A stretch of 64,000 nt of DNA from Pseudomonadota bacterium (GTDB lineage Bacteria; Desulfobacterota; Desulfobulbia; Desulfobulbales; Desulfocapsaceae), in the NCBI GenBank assembly GCA_018817385.1, contig JAHIUA010000021.1:1-64000 (forward strand), given 5' to 3'. The position numbers and the translations under genes are program-made. The notes beneath the pieces are model-generated. The model did not search any database. It was not told the origin of the DNA and worked only from the letters and a program-made list of their open reading frames with translations. Positions 345 through 36,238 of this stretch are shown here, piece after piece (within the stretch, counting starts at the first letter, position 1; each line of letters opens with the position of its first letter).

Positions 345-725
345 CATCCATCTTCCTATACAGTTTTCAACTCCAATCGTCATTTTGGTGCATCTGAAGA
401 TTGTTACACATCAGGTCTGTGGGTTGATGATGGTACAAATTTTCCTACAAAGTTCGACAATATCTACTTTCGCTTTCGGCCAAGCTACCGTAGGCCTGGT
501 TTGATGGGAGCGTATTGGGGCAGAAAAGACCCTGCCTCAGGCAGGAACTACCTGCGGCCAGACGCCATCACAAGTGGCAAAGAAACTTCGCTGGAACAGT
601 TACCTGAACAACTCCATCGCCTTCCCAGGCGCCACAGCGTGACATTGACAGCCACCTGTCTTTCCATTTATAATCAGTCACAAATTGATATTCGAAATAA
701 AGCCAAACCCGCTGAAAAGCGGTGA
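345..725 (+). pseudogene. Decayed coding remnants of unknown family
   Basis: After a TAA at 342-344 a frame without a start codon at its beginning reads through to 725. It includes a stretch rich in N, D, Y, F and R (NIYFRFRPSYRRPG) that looks like real protein. A second frame, 505-642, gives an equally protein-like tail ending RWNSYLNNSIAFPGATA and a stop. Protein-like sequence in two frames across a short interval suggests a gene broken by frameshifts and truncated at its 5' end. I cannot assign a family. The 3' part of the first frame overlaps the riboswitch candidate and is probably non-coding there. Confidence 0.3.
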
Positions 726-764
726 CGGAAAGCTACGGGTCTGTAACAGATAGCCGAGTTGCCT
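697..764 (+). ncRNA. Possible GEMM-I (c-di-GMP or cGAMP) riboswitch aptamer
   Basis: The segment carries the landmarks of the GEMM-I class in order: a GCCAAACC block, a 5-bp hairpin closed by a GAAA tetraloop (CCGCT 709-713, AGCGG 718-722), the GTGACGGAAAGC block, ACGGGTCT, and a closing TAGCCGAGTTGCC segment. This is close to the consensus of aptamers known from Geobacter-like deltaproteobacteria. In my hand alignment to Vc2 the specificity base corresponding to G20 reads G, which would favour c-di-GMP, but cGAMP-selective variants exist and the alignment is uncertain. The first clear gene downstream is the surface-type FG-GAP protein at 1380, a plausible c-di-GMP target. Confidence 0.7.
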
Positions 765-793
765 TTGAATGAGGTAGCTCGGCTATTTTTTTT
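752..793 (+). terminator. Rho-independent terminator fused to the riboswitch
   Basis: A 12-bp stem with two G-T wobbles (752-763 with 773-784) and a 9-nt loop is followed by a run of T from 786 to 793. The left arm is the 3' closing strand of the GEMM-like aptamer. Ligand-stabilised aptamer and terminator therefore compete for the same bases, the usual arrangement of a transcriptional on-switch. Confidence 0.75.
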
Positions 794-1379: not shown

Positions 1380-4223
1380 GTGGAGCTTATGAAACTTTCG
1401 AAAATATTCTTGTTGTTTGGTCAAAGGAAACTTCGCTTTCCTGTCTTATTAAAAAAAAGGACGCATTTTGTTTGTTTGGTTTTGACACTACTTGTCCTCG
1501 GATTTGGCGGGTCGCCGGCTTCGGCAACTTATTCTAATCCACTCTACCTCAGCGGCGTTCCCGGCACTGTTCTCGGTGCTCTTACCTGGGGGTGGTATGG
1601 AGGGGGCTATTGGGGGAAGTCCACCAGCGGAATCGGTGACGTGAATGGTGACGGCTTTGACGATATCATCGTTGCCAGCGATAGAATCCGGATAGGGGCA
1701 AATTTCAATTCGGGTGAAGCAATCCTTTTTTACGGCACCCGGGGAATGTTTGGTTCCAGCATGACAATGAATCTGTTTACCTATTCCATGACCGCCAGCG
1801 AAGGCATACGCTTTCAGGGCACAGCAGCCAACCAGTCCCTGGGGAGAAGTGTTGCCGGAGCGGGAGACGTCAATGGTGACGGGTATGCCGATTTACTTAT
1901 CGGTTCTGGCGAAAATGGCACCAATGGGACGGTCTATCTGATTTATGGCAAGAGCCCTCTGCTCAGTTCCAATGTTCTCTTCAGCCTGAACGCAAGCGTT
2001 TTGAACGGGAGTAACGGGGTTGCAATCATCGGAGAGACAGACGGTTACCTCGGAAATGATGTGAACACGATTTCCAGCGCAGGGGATGTCAACGGTGATG
2101 GCTATGATGATATTCTATTGGTTCAATGGGACAAGGTCTTTCTGATTTATGGATCGGCCGGCGGGATCGGCTCGAGTGGCGAGCTGGATCTGTCAACCTT
2201 CACTGCTGCCGATGGCGTCGTAATTGTCGGAGCGGGCTCGATTCAGGGGTTCACAGCGGTCTCCGGCGCAGGAGATGTCAACGGTGACGGCTATGATGAT
2301 ATTCTGCTGGGAGCCAACAAGGTCTATCTGGCAGCGAGCTCAACTGATGACACTGGAGGCGGGATCATACTCTACGGCTCGGCAACCGGGATCGGCACCA
2401 GCGGTTCTTTCACCGTATCGGAAACCATCCTGGACGGGATCAATGGCACTCGCTTTATCGGTCCATCGCCGTACGGTAGCGGTGCTGGTCGTTCTGTCAG
2501 TGGTGTCGGTGATGTCACCGGAGATGGTTACGCCGATTTCGTAATTGGCGCCTCTAATTGGGGCTACTGGAACACAACTGCCAACCAGGGGAATGGTCGT
2601 GTTTACCTTGTCTACGGTGATTCCGGTCCCTTGGGTCCAGACGGTACCCGTTTCATGATTAATCTTGACGGGACCATAGGGGTGAAACTCAATGGCCCTA
2701 CCAATTATACCTATGCTGGCCGCAGGCTTTCTTCTGCAGGAGACGTCAACGGAGATGGCCTTGCCGACCTGGTGATCCCTGCCTATTACGACGACCAACA
2801 GGCGGGAAGGACCTATGTGATCTACGGAAAACAGGGAACGATATATAGCGGCTCCGACTATGATCTCGGTAGCATCCTTACCCAGAATGGCACCAAAATG
2901 ATTGGGGCGAGTACTTATGAAGAATCGGGCAGCGATGTCTCCACCGCAGGTGATTTCAATGGGGATGGAAAATCAGACCTGCTTATTGGTGCCCACGAGG
3001 CGGACGAACCAAACGGTTACGCCGTGACAAGCGGTAAGGCCTATCTGGTATGGGGTGACGGCTTCCCAGCGAGCGCCGTGGTCAAGGCCTTTATCATGCC
3101 AGGGGATGCTCCGAAAAAAGGCATCGGCATGGCCGGAGACGGCAAACACACCTATCCCCTTTCGCGGGTCTGGATTGATTATGCTGACGGCTCGGCCTCT
3201 GGAGGGGCCAGTATGGAGACCGTTACCTATTACCGGGCCATTCCTTCAGGAACGGGGTTACCTGCCAATATCGCCTACGGCTACTGGCAGATAGCAACAA
3301 ATCGTACCAGCTGGAGCGAGGCAACAGTGACCCTAAAATACGCGCTCAACGATATCGGACTCTTTGAAAAGGAAAATCTTCATATCTATCAGGCAGACTC
3401 TCCTGGAGGCCCCTATACCAAGCTGACCACAACTTCCAATACCAGTAATCATACGCTGACTGCATCGGTCAGCAAATTTTCCTACTTTGTCATTGCCGAG
3501 CCGGGAACTTCTCCAAACCTTACCATGGCGGTTACACCAACCGATGCAGGTACCACAACTCCGGCAGCCGGCACAACAACCGAGGTTACTGCGGATGTTC
3601 CGGTGTCCATTTCAGCCACTGCCGCCGGTGGTTATAATTTCACCAACTGGACCAGCAGTGGTGTCGAAGCTGTTATCCTGGACGCCAATGCAGGTTCTAC
3701 CACCGTTACGTTGAGCGGACATGCAACGGTCACTGCAAATTTTTGCCTGCTGCAAACATGGTATCGGGACAGTGATGGGGATGGCTATGGCAACCCTGCC
3801 GTCACCAAGAGCCAATGCAGCCAGCCAATAGGATATGTGGCTGATAACACAGACTGTGATGATTCCGATGGAAACGAATATCCCAACCAGACTTGGTACC
3901 AGGATAGCGATGGTGATGGCCATGGGGATAGTTCTGTCACTCTAAGCCAGTGCCTGCAACCGACTGGATATGTGCTAAGCAGCATAGATTGCGATGATTC
4001 CGATGCAAACGAATATCCAGGTCAAACCTGGTATAAGGATCAGGATGGTGATGGTTATTCTGACGGCACAAAGAATACAACCTCATGCGAAAGACCAACT
4101 GATTATTATGTCGCTGCAGAGTTAATAAGAACCTTTGGTGATCCAGATGATACGGATCCGAATATAATTCCGCCTCAGTTCATCTGGAATTTATTTCTGC
4201 CTGCAATCTTAGGAGGCAACTGA
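1380..4223 (+). CDS. Secreted FG-GAP beta-propeller protein with MopE-type repeats
   Basis: The 947-residue protein starts with a basic N-terminus and a hydrophobic segment ending near PASA (about residues 28-50), a likely signal peptide. Seven FG-GAP/integrin-alpha-like repeats with GDVNGDGxxD calcium-binding loops follow (about 80-560), enough for one seven-bladed propeller. Next come a choice-of-anchor-like region, a beta-rich bacterial repeat domain (about 710-790), and three WYxDxDGDGY...CDDSD repeats like those of MopE and thrombospondin type 3. The extreme C-terminus is [14 protein letters not shown]. The GTG at 1380 has GGAG five bases upstream; an ATG at 1389 is the alternative. It probably acts at the cell surface in adhesion or calcium/metal binding. 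Substrate is unknown. A c-di-GMP-type riboswitch and two inserted repeats lie upstream. Confidence 0.85.
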
Positions 4224-26924: not shown

Positions 26925-27173
26925 TCAATTTTCTTTAAGGGCTTCAGCCTCAGTTTTCATTGCCTTATAGCTTTCAGATTCGGTGATTTTCTTTTCTTCT
27001 ATTTTCTCAATTTCGGTACGAGTCAGGTGAAATTGACCACAAGCCGGACAGGTCCCATCAAATTCATCTCCCACGGCCCTGGCCTTGAGCTCGTCAACGG
27101 TCATGTGATCCAGTTTGCCACATGCGCCACTGGGATTCTCTGCCCGTACCTGAGATCTTTTTTTATCAGTCAT
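26925..27173 (-). CDS. Small zinc-ribbon-like hypothetical protein
   Basis: An 82-residue basic/acidic protein with a GACGKLDH segment, then a TCPACGQFHLT knuckle, followed by a charged C-terminal helix rich in E and K. Two Cys-containing clusters suggest a one-zinc fold. The ATG at 27173 is preceded by AGGAGG at six bases; an upstream in-frame start at 27206 would place the Shine-Dalgarno sequence inside the gene. No family is recognised. It is transcribed in the same direction as the hydrogenase cluster but lies beyond its end and beyond a repeat. Confidence 0.6.
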   Translation of the reverse strand: MTDKKRSQVRAENPSGACGKLDHMTVDELKARAVGDEFDGTCPACGQFHLTRTEIEKIEEKKITESESYKAMKTEAEALKEN

Positions 27174-27355
27174 AAAAGCCCTCCTGTGTTGATACTGGTT
27201 TTTCAAATTGGTGGAAAAAAGAGTAAGCGAAACAGATTCTGTTATTCAGAAATGCAATGAAAAGTGGCAGGAAGGAGCGTTCACTTTCCCGTCACTTTTC
27301 ATTTTCATGGTTTGGCACTGAGGAGATATTCCGATCCTTCTCACCACTCTTGCCA

Positions 27356-27475: not shown

Positions 27476-28924
27476 TTAATTGATAATTTTGTCAATCTCT
27501 GTTCCTGCCTGGTTGACAATGCTGATAGCTATAGGGATACCGCCATCCAGGCGGTGCGTTGCGCAAGACATTCAGGGGTCGTAGGCCCTGACGGCCATCT
27601 CCACCTGATTGAGTAATCCCTCGTTATATACGCCATCTTTTATGAGGCTTGTTGCTGCCTGTTTCACACTCATATTCATTGGCGCAATATTGTGAGTCGT
27701 TCCGACAATAAGATTAGCCGAGGTTATACATCCGTTATCATCGGTTGTATAATCATGGATAAGTGTTCCCCTTGGGGCCTCAACAATGCCTACTCCTCTT
27801 CCTGCTTTCGGCTCAGCCTTTGCTCTTACATTCGGGTCGGTAATACCTTCCCACTCGAGCAGTTCAATGGTCCGCTCACAGGCGTAAATAAGTTCAATCA
27901 GCCTGGCGTAGTGATAGAGCAAGGTCTGCTGGGCGGGACGTCCAAAGGAACTTCGGAAGGCCTCCAGTGCCGCCTGGGCCTTTGGTGTAGAGATCTTGTC
28001 GCAGACGTTGATCCGGGCCAGGGTGTTGGAACGGTAGATCCCTTTTGGCTGGGCCAGGTTCATATCGAAGCCTTCTCCCCAGGACTTTGCATAGGGCATT
28101 TTTGAGTAGCCCCAGGGCTCGACATGTTCACCGATATAGCTGGCATAGTCTTCACCTTCGAAGTCCACATAGGTGCCGTCATTCTTCATCAGTCTTTGGA
28201 TACCGTCGTAAAGGCGAAGAGAGCCGTCTGCCCGGTCGACCGTTCCCAGAAAACCGGTGTTAATGACTCCAAGTTCGCCGATGACATCCATGTATTTTGC
28301 AAATACATTGTTGATGGCAAAATCTAGGGCATAGGTGGAAAAGTCGAGCAGGGTTCGCGTCCCTTCAAGCAGTTCTTTCCTTTCTGCTTCGACCATCGGC
28401 TTGGCAAAGCCGCCGACCACACCGGCAATGGGATGGATTGCCTTGCCGGCGAACTTATCAAGCATCATCTGCCCGAGTTGCCGCATCTTGACCACTTTGG
28501 TGGCAAGTTCGGGGGCCGCTTTAACCACCCCTATAACGTTGCGCACCGAGTAATCCGCGTCAGGGCCAAGGACAAAATCAGGAGAGGCCAGAAAAAAGAA
28601 GTGGAGGATCTTGTCATTAATGTGTGCCATTACCTGACACATCTCCCGGAGCTTGTAGCCGGTAGCTGTCGGGGTGACGCCAAAAGCCCCATCAACAGCC
28701 TTGTTGGAGGCCAGATGGTGCATCCATGGACAAATACCGCAGATACGGTTGACGATACGGGGGACCTCTTCCGCCGGTCTTCCTTCAATGAATTTCTCAA
28801 ACCCGCGCAGGGACTGGATGTGGAGAAAGGCATCCTCCACATTGCCATCATCGTTGAGATGAATGGCTATTTTTGCGTGCCCTTCAATGCGGGAAACCGG
28901 TGCTATGTTTAATACCTTTCCCAT
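27476..28924 (-). CDS. mvhA: [NiFeSe] hydrogenase large subunit MvhA/VhuA, selenoprotein
   Basis: The large, Ni-Fe-site subunit of the cytoplasmic methyl-viologen-reducing hydrogenase, group 3c-like. The first Ni-binding motif RICGICPWMHH is at about residues 60-70. The frame meets TGA at 27572-27574 directly after AYDP and stays open for 31 more codons: ATG TCT TGC GCA ACG CAC, that is MSCATH, then a 25-residue tail to TAA at 27476. The family consensus is DPCxxCxTH, so the TGA sits exactly at the first cysteine of the second motif and reads as selenocysteine (U451), as in VhuU of Methanococcus. A SECIS-like stem follows. The tail after CATH would be the peptide removed by the maturation protease. 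Product 482 residues before cleavage. mvhG ends one base upstream. Confidence 0.9.
27539..27574 (-). promoter_or_regulatory. SECIS-like element of mvhA
   Basis: Starting exactly 16 nt after the UGA, the RNA can form ACCGCC-UGGAU-GGCGGU, a perfect 6-bp stem with a 5-nt loop containing GG. This matches the position and size of bacterial SECIS apical hairpins, which bind SelB. Confidence 0.75.
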
Positions 28925-28925
28925 G

Positions 28926-29870
28926 TTAACTTTCCTCCTTCTCTATGTGCTTTTTCAGGGGACGCAGTCTGCCGTGTGCTCCTGAGAACCTTAGAATTGA
29001 ACGACGATCCATGACTGATTTATAGTCAATACCGTTGCTTGCCAGGGCATTCATCATGTCGAGCAGCTGGTTGCCGTCTTTACGCACAGGGCCAAAACAG
29101 CCCCGGCAGGGAACTCTGGCACTGATGCAGCTCGGTGCTCCGCGCTTGGCGCATCCTGCTGCGGTCACAGGACCCATGCACAGATAGCCCTGTTCCAGGA
29201 GGCAGCGCATTTCATCAATGGGGGCTCCTGGCTCAAACTCAGCATTTTCAAGAAAACGTCTCACCATGTTCACCGCCCCCTTGCCTTCTCTTTTGGTGGG
29301 GCAGGTGTCGCATACGCTTTTACCGGGCAGGACCGGATCTCGTCCTTCGACGAGGGAAACGATTACCTCCGCAATAAGTTCAGGGTTCGGGGGACAGCCC
29401 GGGAGCTGCAGGTCTATCTTTACCTTTTCATCGCAGGCATAGACTCGATCAAGGGGGGCAGGAACTTCCACATTGGGAATTTCCGCACCCGGGTCGGTGG
29501 TTATGGTATTGAAAATCCCTTTCCAGCTGTCAGCTCGATCCTGACCATTCATCAGGGCCGGAATGCCGCCGTGGGTTGCACAACTCCCGAGGGCGATGAG
29601 CACCGTGCACTTCCTGCGCATCTCTTCCAGGACTTCAAGGTGCTCGTGATTGCTGACCCCGCCTGTGACGATACCCACAACAGCATTTGGAATCGTCAGG
29701 GTTACCCCCTCGCCGCACTGGCCATAATATTTGTGATCCATGAGCACTGGCGCGTGCACAATATCCAGGACTTCAGTTATAATTGGTATGAGATCTTCGC
29801 CGATGTTCAGGATTGCGATTTCGCATCCTGAACAGGATCCCAACCACTCCAAAGCAGTAGTTACTCCCAT
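28926..29870 (-). CDS. mvhG: Hydrogenase small subunit MvhG
   Basis: The 314-residue iron-sulfur subunit passes electrons from the Ni-Fe site of MvhA. The proximal-cluster motif EWLGSCSGCEIAIL is at the N-terminus, ALGSCATHGGIPAL follows at about 95, then LPGCPPNPELI at about 185. Medial/distal cysteines lie in CMGPVTAAGCAKRGAPSC and CRGCFGP. It has no twin-arginine signal, so the enzyme is cytoplasmic. All ligand positions seen here are cysteine, with no UGA. It lies 12 bases after mvhD and one base before mvhA. Confidence 0.92.
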   Translation of the reverse strand: MGVTTALEWLGSCSGCEIAILNIGEDLIPIITEVLDIVHAPVLMDHKYYGQCGEGVTLTIPNAVVGIVTGGVSNHEHLEVLEEMRRKCTVLIALGSCATHGGIPALMNGQDRADSWKGIFNTITTDPGAEIPNVEVPAPLDRVYACDEKVKIDLQLPGCPPNPELIAEVIVSLVEGRDPVLPGKSVCDTCPTKREGKGAVNMVRRFLENAEFEPGAPIDEMRCLLEQGYLCMGPVTAAGCAKRGAPSCISARVPCRGCFGPVRKDGNQLLDMMNALASNGIDYKSVMDRRSILRFSGAHGRLRPLKKHIEKEES

Positions 29871-29882
29871 CTCTCTCTCCTT

Positions 29883-30302
29883 TTAGGTGGTTTGGGTTTC
29901 TTGACTGTTGACGGGGCCTAACTTTTTGATACGTGCTGTCATCTCAGTTACGGCTGCAACAAATTTATCCGGCTCGGCAGATGAGACCCAGGTTAACTTG
30001 ACCCTCTCCTCTTCATAACCAAAATCTTCCAACAACTCGCTCACCATATCGGAACGATCCAACGCTTTATAATTACCATCCAGGTAATGACATTCGCCGA
30101 GGTGTCAGCCAAGTATCATGACCCCGTCCGCCCCTTGGGACAGGGCATTCATGACAAACTCGGGGTGGACCATGCCCGAGCACATTACGCGAATGATACG
30201 GACGTTATGTGGGTACTGCATCCTGGCAGTCCCCGCGAGATCAGCTGCGGCATAGGAGCACCAGTTGCAACAGAAGGCAACAATTTTAGGCTCAAAACTC
30301 AT
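29883..30302 (-). CDS. mvhD: MvhD/VhuD [2Fe-2S] electron-transfer subunit, selenoprotein
   Basis: The 139-residue subunit links the hydrogenase to HdrA. The N-terminal half has [16 protein letters not shown] and [15 protein letters not shown] at 30105-30107 interrupts the frame after GADGVMILG and is followed in frame by [17 protein letters not shown] and a normal C-terminus to TAA at 29883. The family consensus at this point is GCHxGxCHYxxGN, so the TGA replaces the first cysteine (U66), as in VhuD of Methanococcus. Both halves have normal codon use and the length fits the family, so this is not a pseudogene. The ATG at 30302 has AAGGAG nine bases upstream. Confidence 0.9.
30072..30107 (-). 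promoter_or_regulatory. SECIS-like element of mvhD
   Basis: Sixteen nt after the UGA the transcript can form AUUACC-UGGAU-GGUAAU, a perfect 6-bp stem. Its loop UGGAU is identical to that of the mvhA element, while the stem sequence differs. That is the pattern expected of a conserved RNA structure. Confidence 0.75.
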
Positions 30303-30344
30303 GTGATCTACTCCTTTTATGTGATTGTAACGTTATAATTCATC

Positions 30345-30404
30345 CCGGCAAGACCTTCTGCCATCTTCTGCCCTGTTGCCAGGGCTGGTCGAAGGTCTTG
30401 CCGG
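30345..30404 (-). other. Intercistronic hairpin between hdrA and mvhD
   Basis: A perfect 14-bp stem (CCGGCAAGACCTTC at 30345-30358, inverse at 30391-30404) encloses a 32-nt loop that itself contains a small GCCCTGGCAACAGGGC hairpin. There is no T-tract on the minus strand. It probably modulates mRNA stability or partial termination between the Hdr and Mvh parts. Confidence 0.65.
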
Positions 30405-30420
30405 TTGTTCCTTATCAGAT

Positions 30421-33400
30421 TCAGGCTGCCAGAGCCGCTCGAACCTGGGCATTGACCTGTTCCATTGTGAAGCCGGCAACATACACGCCTCTTTTTGGAC
30501 AGGTCCCCTGGCATAAGCCGCACCCTTTACACTGGGCTTTGTTGACCAGGATTACTTTACCCGCCTTGGAACCATCGGCTGCCTTCTTATCTACAAGGGT
30601 GATGGCATGATACGGACAGACATCAACACAGAGGGCACAGCCATCACAATGTGTTTCGTCCACGGTCGCCTTGATGGCATCGAGGGAGACTTCCTTTTTA
30701 GATAAGAGGGTTACAGCTCTGGCGGAGGCGGCCAGGGCCTGGGCCACGGATTCTTCAATCGGTTTGGGATAATGCGCCATTCCTGCCACAAACATTCCAT
30801 CCGTCGAAAAATCCACTGGCCTGAGCTTGGCGTGTGCTTCCTGGAAGAAACCGTCCCCATCCACAGGCACTTTATAGAGGTTACCCAGCTTTGAGGCATC
30901 TCCCATGGGGCGGATAGCTGTGGCCAGGATAACCATGTCTGCCTTCAGGTTTAATGGTCGGTGAAGGACATGGTCCCACACTTCGACATCAATTTGCTGG
31001 CCATCTTCGTGGACATTTGGTTTTCCATGCAGTTCGTAGTTTATAAAAATCACGCCCAGCTTTCGTGCCTCCCTGTATAAATTTTCCCGCTGACCATAGG
31101 TACGCATATCTCTGTAGAGAATATAGATATTACGATCAGGGTTCTCCTTTTTCAGGGCAATGGCCGACTGAACTGAATGGGTACAGCAGACCTTTGAGCA
31201 ATACATCTTGCCTGTTTCACGCGAACCTACACACTGAATAAAGACAAAGTTCTTTGCCTTCTTTACATGGACTTCATTTAACTCATAGAGCTTGTCAAAC
31301 TGGACTGAGGTGACCACTCTGGCAATCGAGTCATAGTTGTATTCTGTTGGAATATAGGCCTCTGCGCCGGTAGCCACGATTCCGGCACCATGTTCAATGA
31401 TTTTTTTGGAGCCGTCCTTGCCGGTAATGGTGGATTTGAAATTGCCGACAAAGCCTTCGACGGCAGTTACCGCAAATTCTTTGTGAATAATGACCTTGTC
31501 GTGTAAGACAACCTTGTCGACAAGTTTGGCCACCGCTGTCGGAATGTATTCCCCGGACCAGGTATGCTTCAGGTGCAGGGCATTGCCGCCGAGAATGGCG
31601 CTTCTTTCGACCAGGTGAACCTCAAAGCCCTGCTCAGCCATGTTCAGGGCTGCAGTCATACCGGCAACACCACCGCCAATAACCAGTCCTTTTTGATAGA
31701 TAGGGACGGAAATGGGTCTGAGGGAGTTACTGTAGGCAACCTTTGCCACTGCCATGCGGATAAGATCATTGGCTTTTGAGGTGGCGGCCTTTGGTTCTGC
31801 GCTGTGGACCCAGGAATTATGATTCCTGATGTTGGCCATCTCGACGAGATATTCGTTCAGGCCCGCAGCCTTGAGCGTTTCGCGAAAGAGTGGCTCATGG
31901 GTTCTCGGGGTACAGGCGGCAATGACTATCCGGTTCAGGTTCTGTTCCTGAATCCTTTTGCTGATCATTTCCTGGGTGTCCTGGGAACAGGAGAAAAGAT
32001 TTCGTTCCACGTAGACCACATCAGGAAGGGTTGCTGCATACTCTTCCACCGCTGCCACATCGACGACCCCGGCTATATTGGAGCCGCAATGACAGACAAA
32101 AACACCAATCCTTGGTTTGTCCCCTGATACATCTTTTTCCATCGGAAAGCTTGCTTCAGTGGTCAATTGAAAACGGGCTGGTGCCAGCAGATCGGCAACT
32201 GCTGCAGCTGCTGCAGAACCTTCAACAACAGACTGGGGAATATCCTTGGGCCCGGCAAAGGCACCACAGGTAAAAATCCCCTGTCGTGAGGTCTGTACGG
32301 GTGCAAAATCTGAGGTGGCCGCAAAATTACTGGCCGTCAGTTTGATGTCTGCCTGGTGGGCAAGTTCTAAAACATGCTTCGGTGTCTGCAGGCCAACAGA
32401 GAGAACAACCAGGTCGTAGAATTCTTCAACCTGGCGACCCGCTTCATTGACATAGCTCAGTCGCAGATCGTCACTGTTGCCATCTGTTTCCACGCCGTTG
32501 ACGCGACAGCGAATAAAACGTACTCCTGAATTTTCTTTGGCGCGCACCATGTACTGGTCGAATTCCTTGCCATGGGTCCGCATATCCATATAGAAGATAG
32601 AGGCAGCCAGACCGGGAACATGGTCTTTGGCTATGACTGCTTCCTTGATGGCATACATACAGCAGACCGAGGAACAGTATCCATTGCCGCACAGGTTTTC
32701 GTCCCGTGAACCAATACACTGGAGGAATGCTACCTTGTTGACCGGTTTTCCGTCTGAAGGTCGTACCAGATGGCCTTCCGTCGGGCCTGAGGCGGAGAGA
32801 TATCTTTCCAGCTGGAGAGAGGTGATTACATTTGGAAAAGTACCATATCCCCAGACTCCGGCACTTGTAGGATCGTAGGCTTCAAATCCCGGAGCCAACA
32901 CCACTGCTCCAACATTTATCTCGTGAATTTTCTCGGTATCATTAAAATTGATAGCCCCTGCATCACATGCTGTTTCGCAGAACCCGCAGGCGCCTGGTTT
33001 TTTCAATCTGATACATGAGTTCGGGTCAATCTGGTATTTCAGGGGGACTGCCTGGGCATACTTGACGTAGATTGCCTTGCGTTTGCCGGTTGCAGCGTCA
33101 TATTCACTGGCGACTTTTTTCGGACATTTCTCTGCACAGGCACCACAGGCAATGCATTTATTCACGTCCACGTAACGTGGAGATTCTTTAACAGTTACAG
33201 TAAAATCCCCAGCACTGCCGGTAATGGCAGCCACTTCACTGAGGGTCATCAATTTTATATTTAAGTGCCGACCGCACTCCACCAATTTTGGCGCGATGAT
33301 TCACATCGAGCAATCATTGGTGGGAAAGGTCTTGTCCAGTTGAGCCATGGCACCGCCTATGGCACCGGACTTCTCGACCAGGTATACGTAATATCCTGAA

Positions 33401-33483
33401 TCAGCGAGATCCAAAGCGGTCTGCATCCCTGTGACTCCACCTCCTACAATCATTACCGACCCAACTTTTTTTGTGTCAAGCAT
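30421..33483 (-). CDS. hdrA: HdrA2-type heterodisulfide reductase flavoprotein, selenoprotein
   Basis: The 1020-residue flavin subunit is the electron-bifurcating centre of Hdr complexes. It has two HdrA-like halves. The N-terminal Rossmann motif is [23 protein letters not shown] at 33301-33303 follows NDCSM and is followed in frame by [15 protein letters not shown]; HdrA proteins have NDCxMC there, so the TGA reads as selenocysteine (U61), as known for HdrA of Methanococcus. Then come [26 protein letters not shown] and [14 protein letters not shown]. The second half begins [16 protein letters not shown] and has [17 protein letters not shown]. The C-terminus is a two-cluster ferredoxin domain ([31 protein letters not shown]). 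The ATG at 33483 has GAGGAG upstream. Confidence 0.9.
33263..33303 (-). promoter_or_regulatory. SECIS-like element of hdrA
   Basis: The stem GAGUGC / GCACUU (one G-U) closes a GGUCG loop, beginning 21 nt after the UGA. The loop resembles the GGUCU loop of the E. coli fdhF SECIS. An alternative CGCCAA/UUGGUG pairing lies closer to the UGA. Confidence 0.65.
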
Positions 33484-33606
33484 GATAGGTCTCTCCTCTC
33501 GATTTTTTTAAAAAATGGAACATCCCAGCCATTCACCAACAGTAGAGTGTCCACTATTTGATCTTCGCCTCAATTGCTGCGGCGATAACGGCCAATCTTC
33601 TTTGCT

Positions 33607-35058
33607 CTACTGTTTCTCGGGTAAAATCAGTGAATCAGCAACAAGCTGCCAAATGTATTTTACTTTTATACCCAGATCATATTCATGATTAATGGATTTC
33701 ATTATTTGATCGCGGCAATTATGACATGGGGCAACAACCAGTTCAGCTCCTGATTCTACGATCTGTCGTGCCTTGATACGAGCGTAGAACACCCTCTCGT
33801 CGGAGTAAGGCATGGCCCAGGCCCCGCCGCCGGCACCGCAACAGTAGGCCCCGTTTCTGTTAGGATTCAGCTCTCTTACGTCGTCGCAACAGGCTCTGGT
33901 CACTGCCCGACCTTCTTCAAAATAGGCCTGTCCAAAAGCCTTTAAGGACTTGCGGCCGTAGTTGCAGGGATCGTGATAGGCCGTTGCAATAGTGTGAATT
34001 GATTTGTCGAGTTGTATTTTTCCTTGAGTTATATATTCAAGGAGAAGGTCAAAGACAGTGACGATTTTAAATTCTTTGAGTGCTTCAGGGTACCATTTGT
34101 TCAACCCAGACCGGGTTGCAAAGTAGGCATGGCCTCACTCGGGGAGAAGGAGGACTTGACAGTTCAGCCTCCTCATGTTGTCAACAATTCTGCCGACAAT
34201 GGTTTTCATGGCGGCATCATCACCGGAGAATAATCCCCAGTTCACGCCTTCCCAGTATTCGGAAGAAATAGTCCACGATTCTCCGGCGGCATAGAAGATC
34301 TTCCACCACCATTTCATGTCGTCAGGTTCTCCAAAGGGTTCTTTGGAATTCACAGTGACAAGTACCCTTGCGCCATGGACATCAATGGGAGTTACAAATC
34401 CAGGACATCCGTCAGCCGCCAGTTCTTCTCCCAGTTCTTCACAGAGGAAGACAAAATCATCTTTGGGGATTCCCAGGTTGTTGCCACGTTCAAGACACAT
34501 GGCAACTCCTTTATGAATAGGCCCTGGAACACGGTCACGCTCGCGGGCACCCCGGATTTTTCTCATCAGGGCTATTATCTGGATATTGGCAGGGCAGGCT
34601 TCTTCACATTTGGCGCACATCGTGCATTTCCATGGCCAGGAGGATTCGATAAGTTCTTTGTCCATCCCAAGTACAGCCATGCGCACAATCTTGCGGGGAT
34701 CAAGGCCGTTGACGCCGGAAATCGGGCAGGCACTTGAACAGGTTCCGCAGGTCAAACAGGCATTCGCCCAGGAAGCATCCTCGACGAACCTGCTCTTCGT
34801 GCCGGTAATGGTCAGGGGCTCAACATCGGCCTTTTCTAATGCCCCTATGGCCTCCGGGTCGACATGGTTTCCGTCATGAACATGGGGTTCGCGGCCAAAT
34901 TTTTCACAGAGGAGTTGGTATGCATGAAAATCCATAAGGTACTTGCGACCGGGACCTTCCTTGGCAGGAAGGGTACCGGCATTAATCCAGTTCCGAATGG
35001 TGTTTCGATGGACCCCAAACTCTTCTGCCATTTCGCTGACTTTAAATTCGTACATCAT
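33607..35058 (-). CDS. HTH-HdrC-HdrB-like fusion, selenoprotein
   Basis: The 483-residue protein has three parts. Residues 1-55 form an excisionase/MerR-type helix-turn-helix (VSEMAEEFGVHRNTIRNWI, then a GRKYLMDFHA wing). Residues about 95-170 hold two [4Fe-4S] motifs of HdrC type (CLTCGTCSSACPIS and CTMCAKCEEACPA). The C-terminal half is an HdrB/GlpC-like CCG domain, with HDPCNYGR, YCCGAGGGAWAMP and APCHNCRDQI. TGA at 34135-34137 breaks the frame inside CQVLLLPE-x-GHAYFA, where CCG proteins carry cysteine, and reads as selenocysteine (U308). The frame beyond is normal to TAG at 33607. It may be the disulfide- or thiol-reducing partner of HdrA. A DNA-binding domain on such an enzyme is unusual. 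Confidence 0.85.
34102..34137 (-). promoter_or_regulatory. SECIS-like element of the hdrBC-like gene
   Basis: CAACCC-GGUCU-GGGUUG, a perfect 6-bp stem, begins 16 nt after the UGA. The loop GGUCU is identical to the apical loop of the E. coli fdhF SECIS, the best of the four matches here. Confidence 0.8.
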
Positions 35059-35069
35059 AAAAGGTCACC

Positions 35070-35564
35070 TCAATTAACGTTATCGTTTAGAATTCGTGAT
35101 ATATGTTCACATGCCTCAGTGACGGCAATGGACATGGCGGGAGACAGTCCCGGTTCTATTTCCTCGGGGATATATTCTACTTGAGCGGCAAGAATCAGAA
35201 TTTTGATGCCCGTATGCAGCTCTAGTTCCTGAAGCAAATTTACGGTGGGAAATTGGTGAAGGGAAAAGTCGTGAATTTTTTTGGCTGGGATGGTGTCTGG
35301 AAAGATTTGAAAGATTTCACCAGGCTTGCGATCAGGAAAATCAACCGCATCAAGGATGATGATCTGTTCAGGTCGGCCTTCGTCTGTGAGCAGGTAATCA
35401 AAGAGATATTCCCGTACACAGGTGCCCACGTCTATGGCCTGGACGGTATCCGGGAGGTTGTAGTGGGCGTTTAACTTATCAACGACAGCTGGTCCATAGC
35501 CATCGTCACCCATGATTACGTTGCCACAGCCAAAAATCATTGTTAGGTATTGTGTCGGTAACAT
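35070..35564 (-). CDS. Hydrogenase maturation protease (HycI/HoxM family)
   Basis: The 164-residue endopeptidase removes the C-terminal tail of the hydrogenase large subunit after Ni insertion. It shows IFGCGNVIMGDDGYGP at the N-terminus, an Asp in AIDVGT at about residue 45, and IILDAVDFPDRKPGEI with the usual metal-binding Asp/His set, including SLHQ. It is the first gene of the hydrogenase-Hdr cluster, 11 bases before the HTH-HdrBC gene. Its presence fits the 25-residue tail predicted behind the UGA of mvhA. The ATG at 35564 is chosen, with GGAGG upstream at somewhat long spacing; ATG 35540 is the alternative. Confidence 0.88.
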   Translation of the reverse strand: MLPTQYLTMIFGCGNVIMGDDGYGPAVVDKLNAHYNLPDTVQAIDVGTCVREYLFDYLLTDEGRPEQIIILDAVDFPDRKPGEIFQIFPDTIPAKKIHDFSLHQFPTVNLLQELELHTGIKILILAAQVEYIPEEIEPGLSPAMSIAVTEACEHISRILNDNVN

Positions 35565-36238
35565 TGTGCAAACAGTGCCTCCATTTTTTTGTATTTATTA
35601 AGTGGTAGCACCTGGAACAGGGAAAATCAACGTTTTTTCCGTGGTCTAGCATTTATTTTGATGGTGTGTAATTTTGATACGATCAATAGGCACAAATGGC
35701 ACAATCCGTAATTTTTGTTTTTGGGTTTCGGCAGCTACAGTGTGGTATGGTCCGTTGTGGTATGTCAGACTCTTTTTATTCCTTGATGACAGATGCTATT
35801 GGTTGAGAGGATATCTTGCACGAGGAAGGGGAAATGGCTTTTTATTTGTGAGGATGTGTTTGTTGGAGGGGAAGAATTTGCCGGGGGTGAGAGGTGTTAG
35901 GGGATCTGGCCTGATGGGGGGCTTGTCAGGGGATGAAAAGGAAAGGGAGCGGCAAGGACAAGGGGAACTGCGACCATTGGCTTGGCACGGAATTTGTTTT
36001 TCTGTTTTTTTTGAAAAAAAGTGGACCTGTCTTCCTTCTTGATGAAAAAAAGCAATGATTCATAAAGCAGAAAAGTGGGTTCGCGGGCGTGTTGTCCAAG
36101 GAGATTGATCTTGGGTAGAACAGAGGATGCCCTTTCTTTTTCGCTTTCTCTGTTGCCAGCTGAAAAAAGGTGATTCACCAGGCCCGGCAATCTGAATTGT
36201 CACCCCTCTCCAGAGATTGAAGAACCTGGACGCTCTTT
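35565..36238. other. Long intergenic region upstream of the hydrogenase cluster
   Basis: The 674 bases between two leftward gene blocks should hold the promoter of the hydrogenase-Hdr operon near 35580-35690. A 122-codon plus-strand frame (35674-36042) is of low complexity, with runs of G and A, lacks a domain and ribosome-binding site, and is not called. I see no further gene. Confidence 0.45.
35674..35686. promoter_or_regulatory. Palindromic operator candidate TTGAT-ACG-ATCAA
   Basis: A perfect 5-3-5 palindrome lies about 110 bases upstream of the maturation protease start. The half-sites equal those of FNR/CRP-family sites (TTGATnnnnATCAA) but with a 3-base spacer, so a different regulator is possible, including the HTH domain encoded in this operon. 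Confidence 0.3.

Follow-up and report, generated by a model that had tools for sequence, protein, structure and literature searches.

A six-gene Hdr-Mvh operon with four selenocysteine codons, a predicted DNA-binding head on its CCG subunit and an operator-like repeat

Organization of the operon

A 64,000-nucleotide stretch of DNA from a Pseudomonadota bacterium of the Desulfocapsaceae (GenBank assembly GCA_018817385.1, contig JAHIUA010000021.1, positions 1 to 64,000), hereafter called the window, carries six minus-strand genes arranged head to tail between positions 35564 and 27476 in the order hycI–hdrBC(CCG)–hdrA–mvhD–mvhG–mvhA (Table 1). A preliminary description, made from the letters of the window, had claimed that four of these genes each contain one in-frame TGA followed by sequence that completes the family domain, that each TGA replaces a conserved cysteine, and that the codons specify selenocysteine (Sec). 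The read-through frames and domain matches bear out the first claim: with TGA translated as a residue, exactly one lies inside each of the HdrBC-like, HdrA, MvhD and MvhA frames, and all four read-through proteins match their family domains, while MvhG and the HycI protease have none. The closest relatives of the operon are found in a Proteobacteria bacterium metagenome-assembled genome (MAG) and in Desulfocapsa sp. MAGs.

A four-selenoprotein operon of this kind is already known. The finding of four Sec codons is not new, since a glpC-hdrA-frhD-frhG-frhA operon has been described in Syntrophobacter fumaroxidans and Desulfotalea psychrophila (Zhang 2006, PMC1794560; 2026 review, PMC13188914, main texts). 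Its five genes, their order and its four selenoprotein families with their Sec codons all recur in the window, and in its deltaproteobacterial hosts hdrA is likewise clustered or fused with itself. The main texts of these two papers contain neither ‘helix-turn-helix’ nor ‘DNA-binding’, and in the text available neither hycI nor a shared repeat is mentioned, the comparison being one of text. What is new here, as read from sequence, is the predicted helix-turn-helix (HTH) DNA-binding head at the HdrBC N-terminus and the shared operator-like repeat; both are absent from the preliminary description and form the less ordinary part of the locus. In the open literature searched, most papers in subscription journals being beyond reach, no paper was recognised that reports this repeat or an Hdr-type subunit bearing an HTH. 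Three Syntrophobacteraceae MAG homologues (L187, L197 and L199) also carry the HTH.

Table 1. Features of the operon in the window (bSECIS, bacterial selenocysteine insertion sequence; AF2, AlphaFold2 model).
Feature	Coordinates	Strand	Evidence or remark
hycI/frhD-type hydrogenase maturation protease, operon gene 1	35070..35564	-	PF01750 5.2e-21; TIGR00072 over cut-off
HTH-HdrC/HdrB-like (CCG) selenoprotein, 483 aa, ‘GlpC’ of the known operon	33607..35058	-	HTH_17, 4Fe-4S dicluster and CCG domains
Winged helix-turn-helix domain, HdrBC-like residues 1-55	34894..35058	-	PF12728; AF2; Foldseek
HdrA selenoprotein, two fused HdrA modules	30421..33483	-	NF040770 3.8e-292, 971.1 bits (below curated cut-off of 1100)
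MvhD selenoprotein	29883..30302	-	PF02662 2.8e-56
MvhG, hydrogenase small subunit, without Sec	28926..29870	-	PF01058, VhuG-like
MvhA [NiFeSe] hydrogenase large subunit	27476..28924	-	VhuA 8.1e-142, VhuU 5.5e-9
Sec codon, HdrBC-like residue 308	34135..34137	-	Internal TGA; homologue codons
Sec codon, HdrA residue 61 (CSMU)	33301..33303	-	Methanogen HdrA has CSMC here, with Cys at the aligned position
Sec codon, MvhD residue 66	30105..30107	-	Aligns with Cys of solved MvhD-type chain
Sec codon, MvhA residue 451 (DPUMSCATH)	27572..27574	-	Aligns with Cys of DPCLSCATH in solved MvhA-type chain
bSECIS hairpin of HdrBC-like	34102..34118	-	CAACCC-GGUCU-GGGUUG
bSECIS hairpin of HdrA	33263..33279	-	GAGUGC-GGUCG-GCACUU
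bSECIS hairpin of MvhD	30072..30088	-	AUUACC-UGGAU-GGUAAU
bSECIS hairpin of MvhA	27539..27555	-	ACCGCC-UGGAU-GGCGGU
Proximal operator-like direct repeat	35564..35579	-	GGCACTGTT-TGCACAA (GGCACTGTTTGCACAA in window); period 9; overlaps hycI start
Distal operator-like direct repeat	35689..35704	+	GGCACAAAT-GGCACAA; opposite orientation

Selenocysteine codons and their hairpins

Comparative sequence evidence confirms the four internal TGAs as Sec codons, because the genome has tRNA-Sec, selA, selB and selD and because the hairpins are intact in Sec copies. The genome (G000; 5.38 Mb, 105 contigs, 100% complete as listed), in which the preliminary description had proposed a search for sel genes, contains all of selA, selB, selC and selD: one tRNA-Sec over the family cut-off, SelA, SelB, and two copies of selD that pass the cut-off (G000:C3:26672-27613 and G000:C54:26403-27329). 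Each selD carries one in-frame TGA, which makes both SelD proteins probable selenoproteins. The second earlier claim also stands, as the TGAs fall at a cysteine of solved homologues for HdrA, MvhD and MvhA, and at a Cys codon in most non-Sec members of the same family for the CCG protein. Together with the recurrence of the TGAs, this alignment and the sel genes support the Sec reading. An origin of the codons in sequencing error, in pseudogene stops or in a general reassignment of TGA, for which nothing was found to speak, is so improbable that it was rejected: the same codons occur in dozens of independent genomes, a recurrence that excludes sequencing error, and the hairpins are lacking in most non-TGA copies. 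The sel genes and the ordinary TGA stops that terminate hycI and HdrA (the latter at 30423-30421) speak against it as well.

Published rules for a bSECIS place a G in the first two loop positions and the apical loop 16-37 nt after the UGA, with a minimum free energy (MFE) of at most -7.5 kcal/mol (PMC13188914, main text). In the window the loops of HdrBC, HdrA, MvhD and MvhA start 22, 27, 22 and 22 nt after the UGA, in keeping with the loop and distance rules; the simple hairpins have MFEs of -7.6, -7.3, -4.7 and -10.5, those of HdrA and MvhD falling short of -7.5 with their lower stems uncounted. The spacing is nearly constant among Sec copies, at 22-23 nt in HdrBC (69/69), 27 nt in HdrA (66/66), and 22 nt in both MvhD (45/52) and MvhA (69/69). 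When a hairpin is called intact if at least five of its first six stem pairs form, 254 of 257 Sec copies have one (HdrBC 68/69, HdrA 65/66, MvhD 52/53, MvhA 69/69), against 16 of 91 non-Sec copies (3/31, 6/29, 7/29 and 0/2, respectively). Hairpins were stronger than under random synonymous recoding (p<=0.05) in 65/69 HdrBC, 54/66 HdrA and 28/69 MvhA copies. At gathering scores the one Rfam match in the window is a riboswitch; no SECIS family was matched. The MvhD element (window 30072-30104) may constrain the encoded peptide, which reads HYLDGNYK in the six Sec copies inspected and varies in Cys copies (HYQDGN, HYIxGN and others).

Sec, Cys and Ser states in homologous operons

The codons were followed through 161 loci with the CCG protein, 101 of them distinct, made up of 80 stretches chosen among the longer matches that 257 genomes of the class gave, 80 named contigs that ranked best among 144 relatives, and the window. 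Readable sites in the 101 distinct operons hold TGA or a Cys codon, a pattern that chance does not explain, with five exceptions, namely Ser at the HdrBC site of L089, L090, L096 and L198 and Trp at the HdrA site of L118. Written in the order HdrBC, HdrA, MvhD, MvhA (U, Sec; C, Cys; S, Ser), the states are UUUU in 48 loci, CCCU in 13, UUCU in five, SCCU in three and CCCC in one, the remaining 31 of the 101 being partial, gene-lacking or mixed. MvhA has TGA in 69 of 71 readable loci. HdrBC and HdrA are both Sec or both non-Sec in 93 of the 95 loci where the two can be read (exceptions, L108 and L198), which suggests that Sec/Cys switching is linked between subunits; since a tree of 94 rows holds only about five independent paired switches, no such linkage is claimed. 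In one small operon nature provides a set of Sec, Cys and Ser variants at four positions, which could help to show what selenium buys.

Six loci have the pattern CCC-, MvhG and MvhA not being found within reach. All-Cys hdrBC-hdrA-mvhD loci in which MvhG and MvhA were not found are L076, L077, L106, L110, L112 and L179; a hypF-like gene lies downstream in L106 (confirmed by family), L110 and L112. The Ser codons at the HdrBC site are TCA, TCG and TCC (L089, L090 and L096, all of genus g7, and L198), an apparent substitution of Ser for Sec or Cys in the CCG active-site region; the three g7 operons have Cys in HdrA and MvhD and retain TGA in MvhA.

The encoded complex and its proposed electron flow

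All HdrABC-MvhADG subunit families are present, with their flavin adenine dinucleotide (FAD) and Fe-S domains. Sequence comparison pairs HdrA, MvhD, MvhA and the HdrC-like part with their counterparts in solved methanogen complexes of the HdrABC-MvhADG and Elp-Hdr types (5odc, 7bkb, 8rvu, 9sfi and 9sw2); MvhG was matched to families only. The AF2 model of the HdrBC-like protein (predicted local distance difference test, pLDDT, 86.5) shows HdrB, HdrC and EtfD folds: the HdrB-like part (residues 230-480) is recognised by fold with Z of about 20-21, and 25.7 for EtfD 9ojn, and the HdrC-like part (residues 87-181) also by fold, with Z of 10.6. Unlike the methanogen complexes, HdrB and HdrC are here fused in one chain with the HTH in front, only one CCG motif has all its cysteines, HdrA consists of two modules in permuted order, and the SECIS elements are of the bacterial, in-gene type. 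HdrA aligns to solved HdrA chains in three stretches of permuted order, its first module lacking the N-terminal domain. In the CCG protein the full cysteine set occurs only in the C-terminal motif (C365, C406-C407, C445 and C448, by eye), and Sec308 lies in the N-terminal half, at a position that by eye matches the leading Cys of the CxxC in the other half; Sec308 would act beside the single CCG cluster.

Comparable proteins occur in other sulfate reducers. Sec is found in HdrA, MvhD or HdrD-type proteins (PMC2702500, PMC5109826, in the text available), and Desulfobacterium autotrophicum has Sec-containing HdrA, MvhD and HdrD-type (hdrD4) proteins and an mvhA2DG cluster with hdrA1; in the text of PMC2702500 available it differs in showing no single operon with a Sec-containing CCG subunit, and ‘helix-turn-helix’ does not occur in the main text of that paper. 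In Candidatus Desulfobulbus rimicarensis, whose locus is in our set (L171), mvhADG lies beside hdr genes (PMC7117923, in the text available).

By analogy with the solved HdrABC-MvhADG complexes, the products of the operon probably form one cytoplasmic, H2-dependent Hdr-Mvh complex, with Sec inserted into four subunits through SelB and the hairpin after each UGA. The Ni-Fe-Se site of MvhA would split H2 and send electrons by way of MvhG and MvhD to HdrA, whose FAD is expected to carry out bifurcation: ferredoxin would receive one share of the electrons, and the other would run through the HdrC-like clusters to the CCG cluster beside Sec308 and reduce a presumed disulfide-type acceptor. Solved HdrABC-type complexes bifurcate; they are the closest solved relatives of this one, and HdrA keeps its FAD and ferredoxin domains. 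It seems improbable, then, that H2 electrons pass directly to the acceptor, or run in reverse to make H2, with Sec merely speeding the chain, although flavin bifurcation is read from homology and HdrA is a permuted two-module fusion.

A predicted DNA-binding head on the CCG subunit

The N-terminal 55 residues of the CCG subunit are predicted to fold as a winged HTH (AF2 pLDDT 90). The domain was folded separately because comparison of the whole protein barely tests the HTH part. All 27 homologues scanned match PF12728, and all 27 also match PF00376/PF13411 at E<=0.01. Across 93 rows, mean pairwise identity is 0.90 for residues 15-28 and 0.26 for the linker at residues 56-95; residues 15-25 are near-invariant, with R18, N19, T20, R22, N23 and W24 conserved in 99-100%. 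The top Foldseek matches are chains of RacA-DNA, BldC-DNA and phage Xis, BldC chains appearing in the top rows with TM scores of 0.65-0.76 and E of about 0.02-0.15. BldC binds 9-bp direct repeats of the form AATTXXXX(C) head to tail (PMC5859096, in the text available). The two systems share the winged HTH fold, the 9-bp direct repeat with an AT-rich part followed by C-G, and, within the recognition helix, a pair of basic residues at a spacing of four (R18/R22 here, Lys26/Arg30 in BldC). Unlike BldC, a free protein of 68 residues, the head predicted here is fused to a redox enzyme. By this resemblance the HTH of the CCG subunit probably binds DNA.

A direct repeat at the operon start

Most relatives of the operon have at its start, just before hycI, a direct repeat with a 9-bp period (TGCACAANN twice; consensus TGCACAANNTGCACAA). 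Operon starts were scored in 97 loci, two too-short loci being left out along with others in which the HdrBC match does not begin at residues 1-3. The best score between -250 and +20 is at least 11 of 14 in 90 of the 97, against 44 of 970 dinucleotide shuffles, and at least 13 in 29 of the 97, against none of 970; stretches drawn at random from these loci, some of them perhaps including true sites, reached the two scores in 63/970 and 9/970. For 11 loci in which hycI was not found, the hdrBC start served as the reference; several of these are truncated at contig ends, and L198 has MvhG. The scores were 13 in L106, L110, L112, L118 and L179, 11 in L077 and L198, and 9 in L076, L086, L174 and L178. 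The distal site is in reverse orientation in 28 of 86 loci and in forward orientation in nine.

A position weight matrix (PWM) was trained on the proximal operon sites, so that its scores inside operons are not independent; at a score of at least 14 it finds 154 sites, some of them training sites, over operon starts totalling 27 kb, and 18 in the 1.15 Mb elsewhere in the same loci. No exact palindrome with arms of at least 7 lies within 400 bp upstream of hycI, and a sigma-70 scan gave nothing at hycI among the matches listed, the region as a whole having 12 against 9.1 expected. A TTG..TGNTA pattern is tentatively conserved in the upstream alignment. The sequence TTATGCACA resembles a DnaA box, but identification of the repeats as DnaA boxes was set aside because they cluster at hydrogenase genes.

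Sites at hydrogenase and hyp genes of relatives

The exact repeat occurs 29 times in the 257 genomes, against three occurrences of a reversed control pattern. Classed by eye from neighbouring genes, with families checked for eight proteins, eight of the 29 lie at this operon, 12 at genes for the small subunit of twin-arginine translocation (Tat)-type hydrogenases, one near an hdrA-like gene, and eight beside nothing obvious. Two of the operon sites are divergent from hypF, and one also faces a Tat-type small-subunit gene. Nineteen of the 21 gene-adjoining sites are in genomes with HTH-HdrBC, as is one of the other eight; without the operon's own eight sites the comparison is 11/13 against 1/8 (p 0.0022). 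The sites with no obvious neighbour are L200, L208, L209, L213, L214 and L228, in five genomes without the HTH gene, L225 at a contig end in G025, and L201 in a gene-bearing genome.

Hydrogenase small-subunit promoters show the same association. A site (PWM score at least 14) is present in 16 of 25 promoters from genomes with the HTH gene and in four of 25 from genomes without it (Fisher p 0.0012), p values here being only a guide because the rows are related and the promoter-comparison genomes were hand-picked; shuffled promoters have a site in 2/250 and 1/250. The promoters come from 30 of 36 matches in the first group and 30 of 40 in the second, five per group being dropped where the Tat-motif rule gave no gene start. 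When L260, whose site is the operon's own, is removed, the first group becomes 15/24 (p 0.0012), and counted per genome the figures are 15/23 and 4/22 (p 0.0023). G147 was counted as lacking the gene, though a fragment of a homologue stands at a contig start. With one of its two loci transferred to the other group the comparison is 17/26 against 3/24; with both transferred it is 17/27 against 3/23 (p 0.00044), or 16/26 against 3/23 (p 0.00097) if L260 is also left out. Absence of HTH-HdrBC was checked by whole-protein search in six genomes and G089, with G023 as positive control; a search with the first 99 residues, run without a positive control, found no match in 13 genomes, these six among them.

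Among the 18 PWM sites elsewhere in the loci, nine stand by eye shortly before a hypF-like gene (L106 twice, L107, L109, L112, L117, L183 and L195 twice); family matches identify hypF in L106 and L109 and hypC and hypD in L109. In L105 two PWM sites precede a Tat-type small-subunit gene. At G023:C205:14310-14342 (L202/L223), two opposed exact repeats whose starts are 17 bp apart lie in the stretch that separates mvhA from the small-subunit gene of a Tat-type hydrogenase.

A model for regulation and its alternatives

The enzyme may control its own genes, because a DNA-binding head is predicted on it and matching sites are found at this operon and at hydrogenase genes of relatives. This has led us to propose, with a probability of roughly 0.6 and on sequence comparison, an H2-dependent, flavin-bifurcating complex that doubles as a regulator, its CCG subunit binding DNA and governing the expression of hydrogenase genes. 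In the model a variable linker carries the BldC-like winged HTH, at least two such heads would sit head to tail on the operon-start repeats of 9-bp period, and the enzyme would tune its own operon and the hydrogenase and hyp genes of relatives according to its redox or assembly state. The odds seem even that the CCG subunit is a sequence-specific regulator reporting its redox or selenium-loading state to the operon and to a hydrogenase regulon made up of the Tat-type [NiFe]-hydrogenases and hyp genes of Desulfocapsa/Desulfobulbus relatives and Syntrophobacteraceae. For the operon we infer both the promoter position and the direction of regulation. PutA is a trigger enzyme, a metabolic enzyme that through a fused DNA-binding domain regulates the operon encoding it; it resembles the protein proposed here in that fusion and differs in fold, chemistry and DNA-binding domain. 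If the model holds, the enzyme would be both an H2-driven bifurcation machine and a transcription factor, sensing flux directly and setting hydrogenase levels without a separate sensor.

Several observations weigh against this model. Nine of the 25 hydrogenase promoters in gene-bearing genomes have no site. HTH-HdrBC was not found in G027, G029 and G033, which have sites at hydrogenase promoters, nor in G025, which has exact sites, one of them beside a Tat-type gene; these four assemblies are fragmented (320-600 contigs), and no protein with the same helix was found among their HTH_17 matches, other regulator families not having been searched. Another regulator may read the sites in these genomes. 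The window's own genome has two copies of GCACNNNNTGCACAA, one at this operon and one elsewhere, no more than it has of the control, and no Tat-type small subunit was found there at E<=1e-30. The best Foldseek E for the HTH, a small domain, is only about 0.02, and the MvhD hairpin is weak under synonymous recoding, just 3/52 copies being at p<=0.05.

The four genomes with sites and no HTH-HdrBC found would fit an ordinary four-selenoprotein Hdr-Mvh complex in which a separate hydrogenase regulator reads the repeats and the HTH serves for docking or is a relic, and a distinct regulator of an hdr operon does exist, HdrR of Methanosarcina barkeri (PMC11218639, in the text available). We nevertheless consider this arrangement less likely, since in 90 of 97 loci a repeat (score at least 11) lies where the operon that encodes the HTH begins, and repeats are found upstream of hdrBC even where hycI, mvhG and mvhA are not seen (L106, L110, L112, L118 and L179). 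Residues 15-25 of the HTH are near-invariant, a 9-bp direct repeat is the target expected of a BldC-like head, and presence of the gene is associated with presence of the sites.

Other features of the window

A small Cys-containing protein is encoded directly after mvhA (26925-27206, minus strand) and is a possible additional member of the operon; a 90-aa open reading frame (ORF) after mvhA in L107 looks like it. The riboswitch matched by Rfam is of the c-di-GMP-I-GGC type (693-767, plus strand, 64.2 bits), and downstream of it lies a large ORF (1380-4223) that by eye resembles FG-GAP-repeat proteins.

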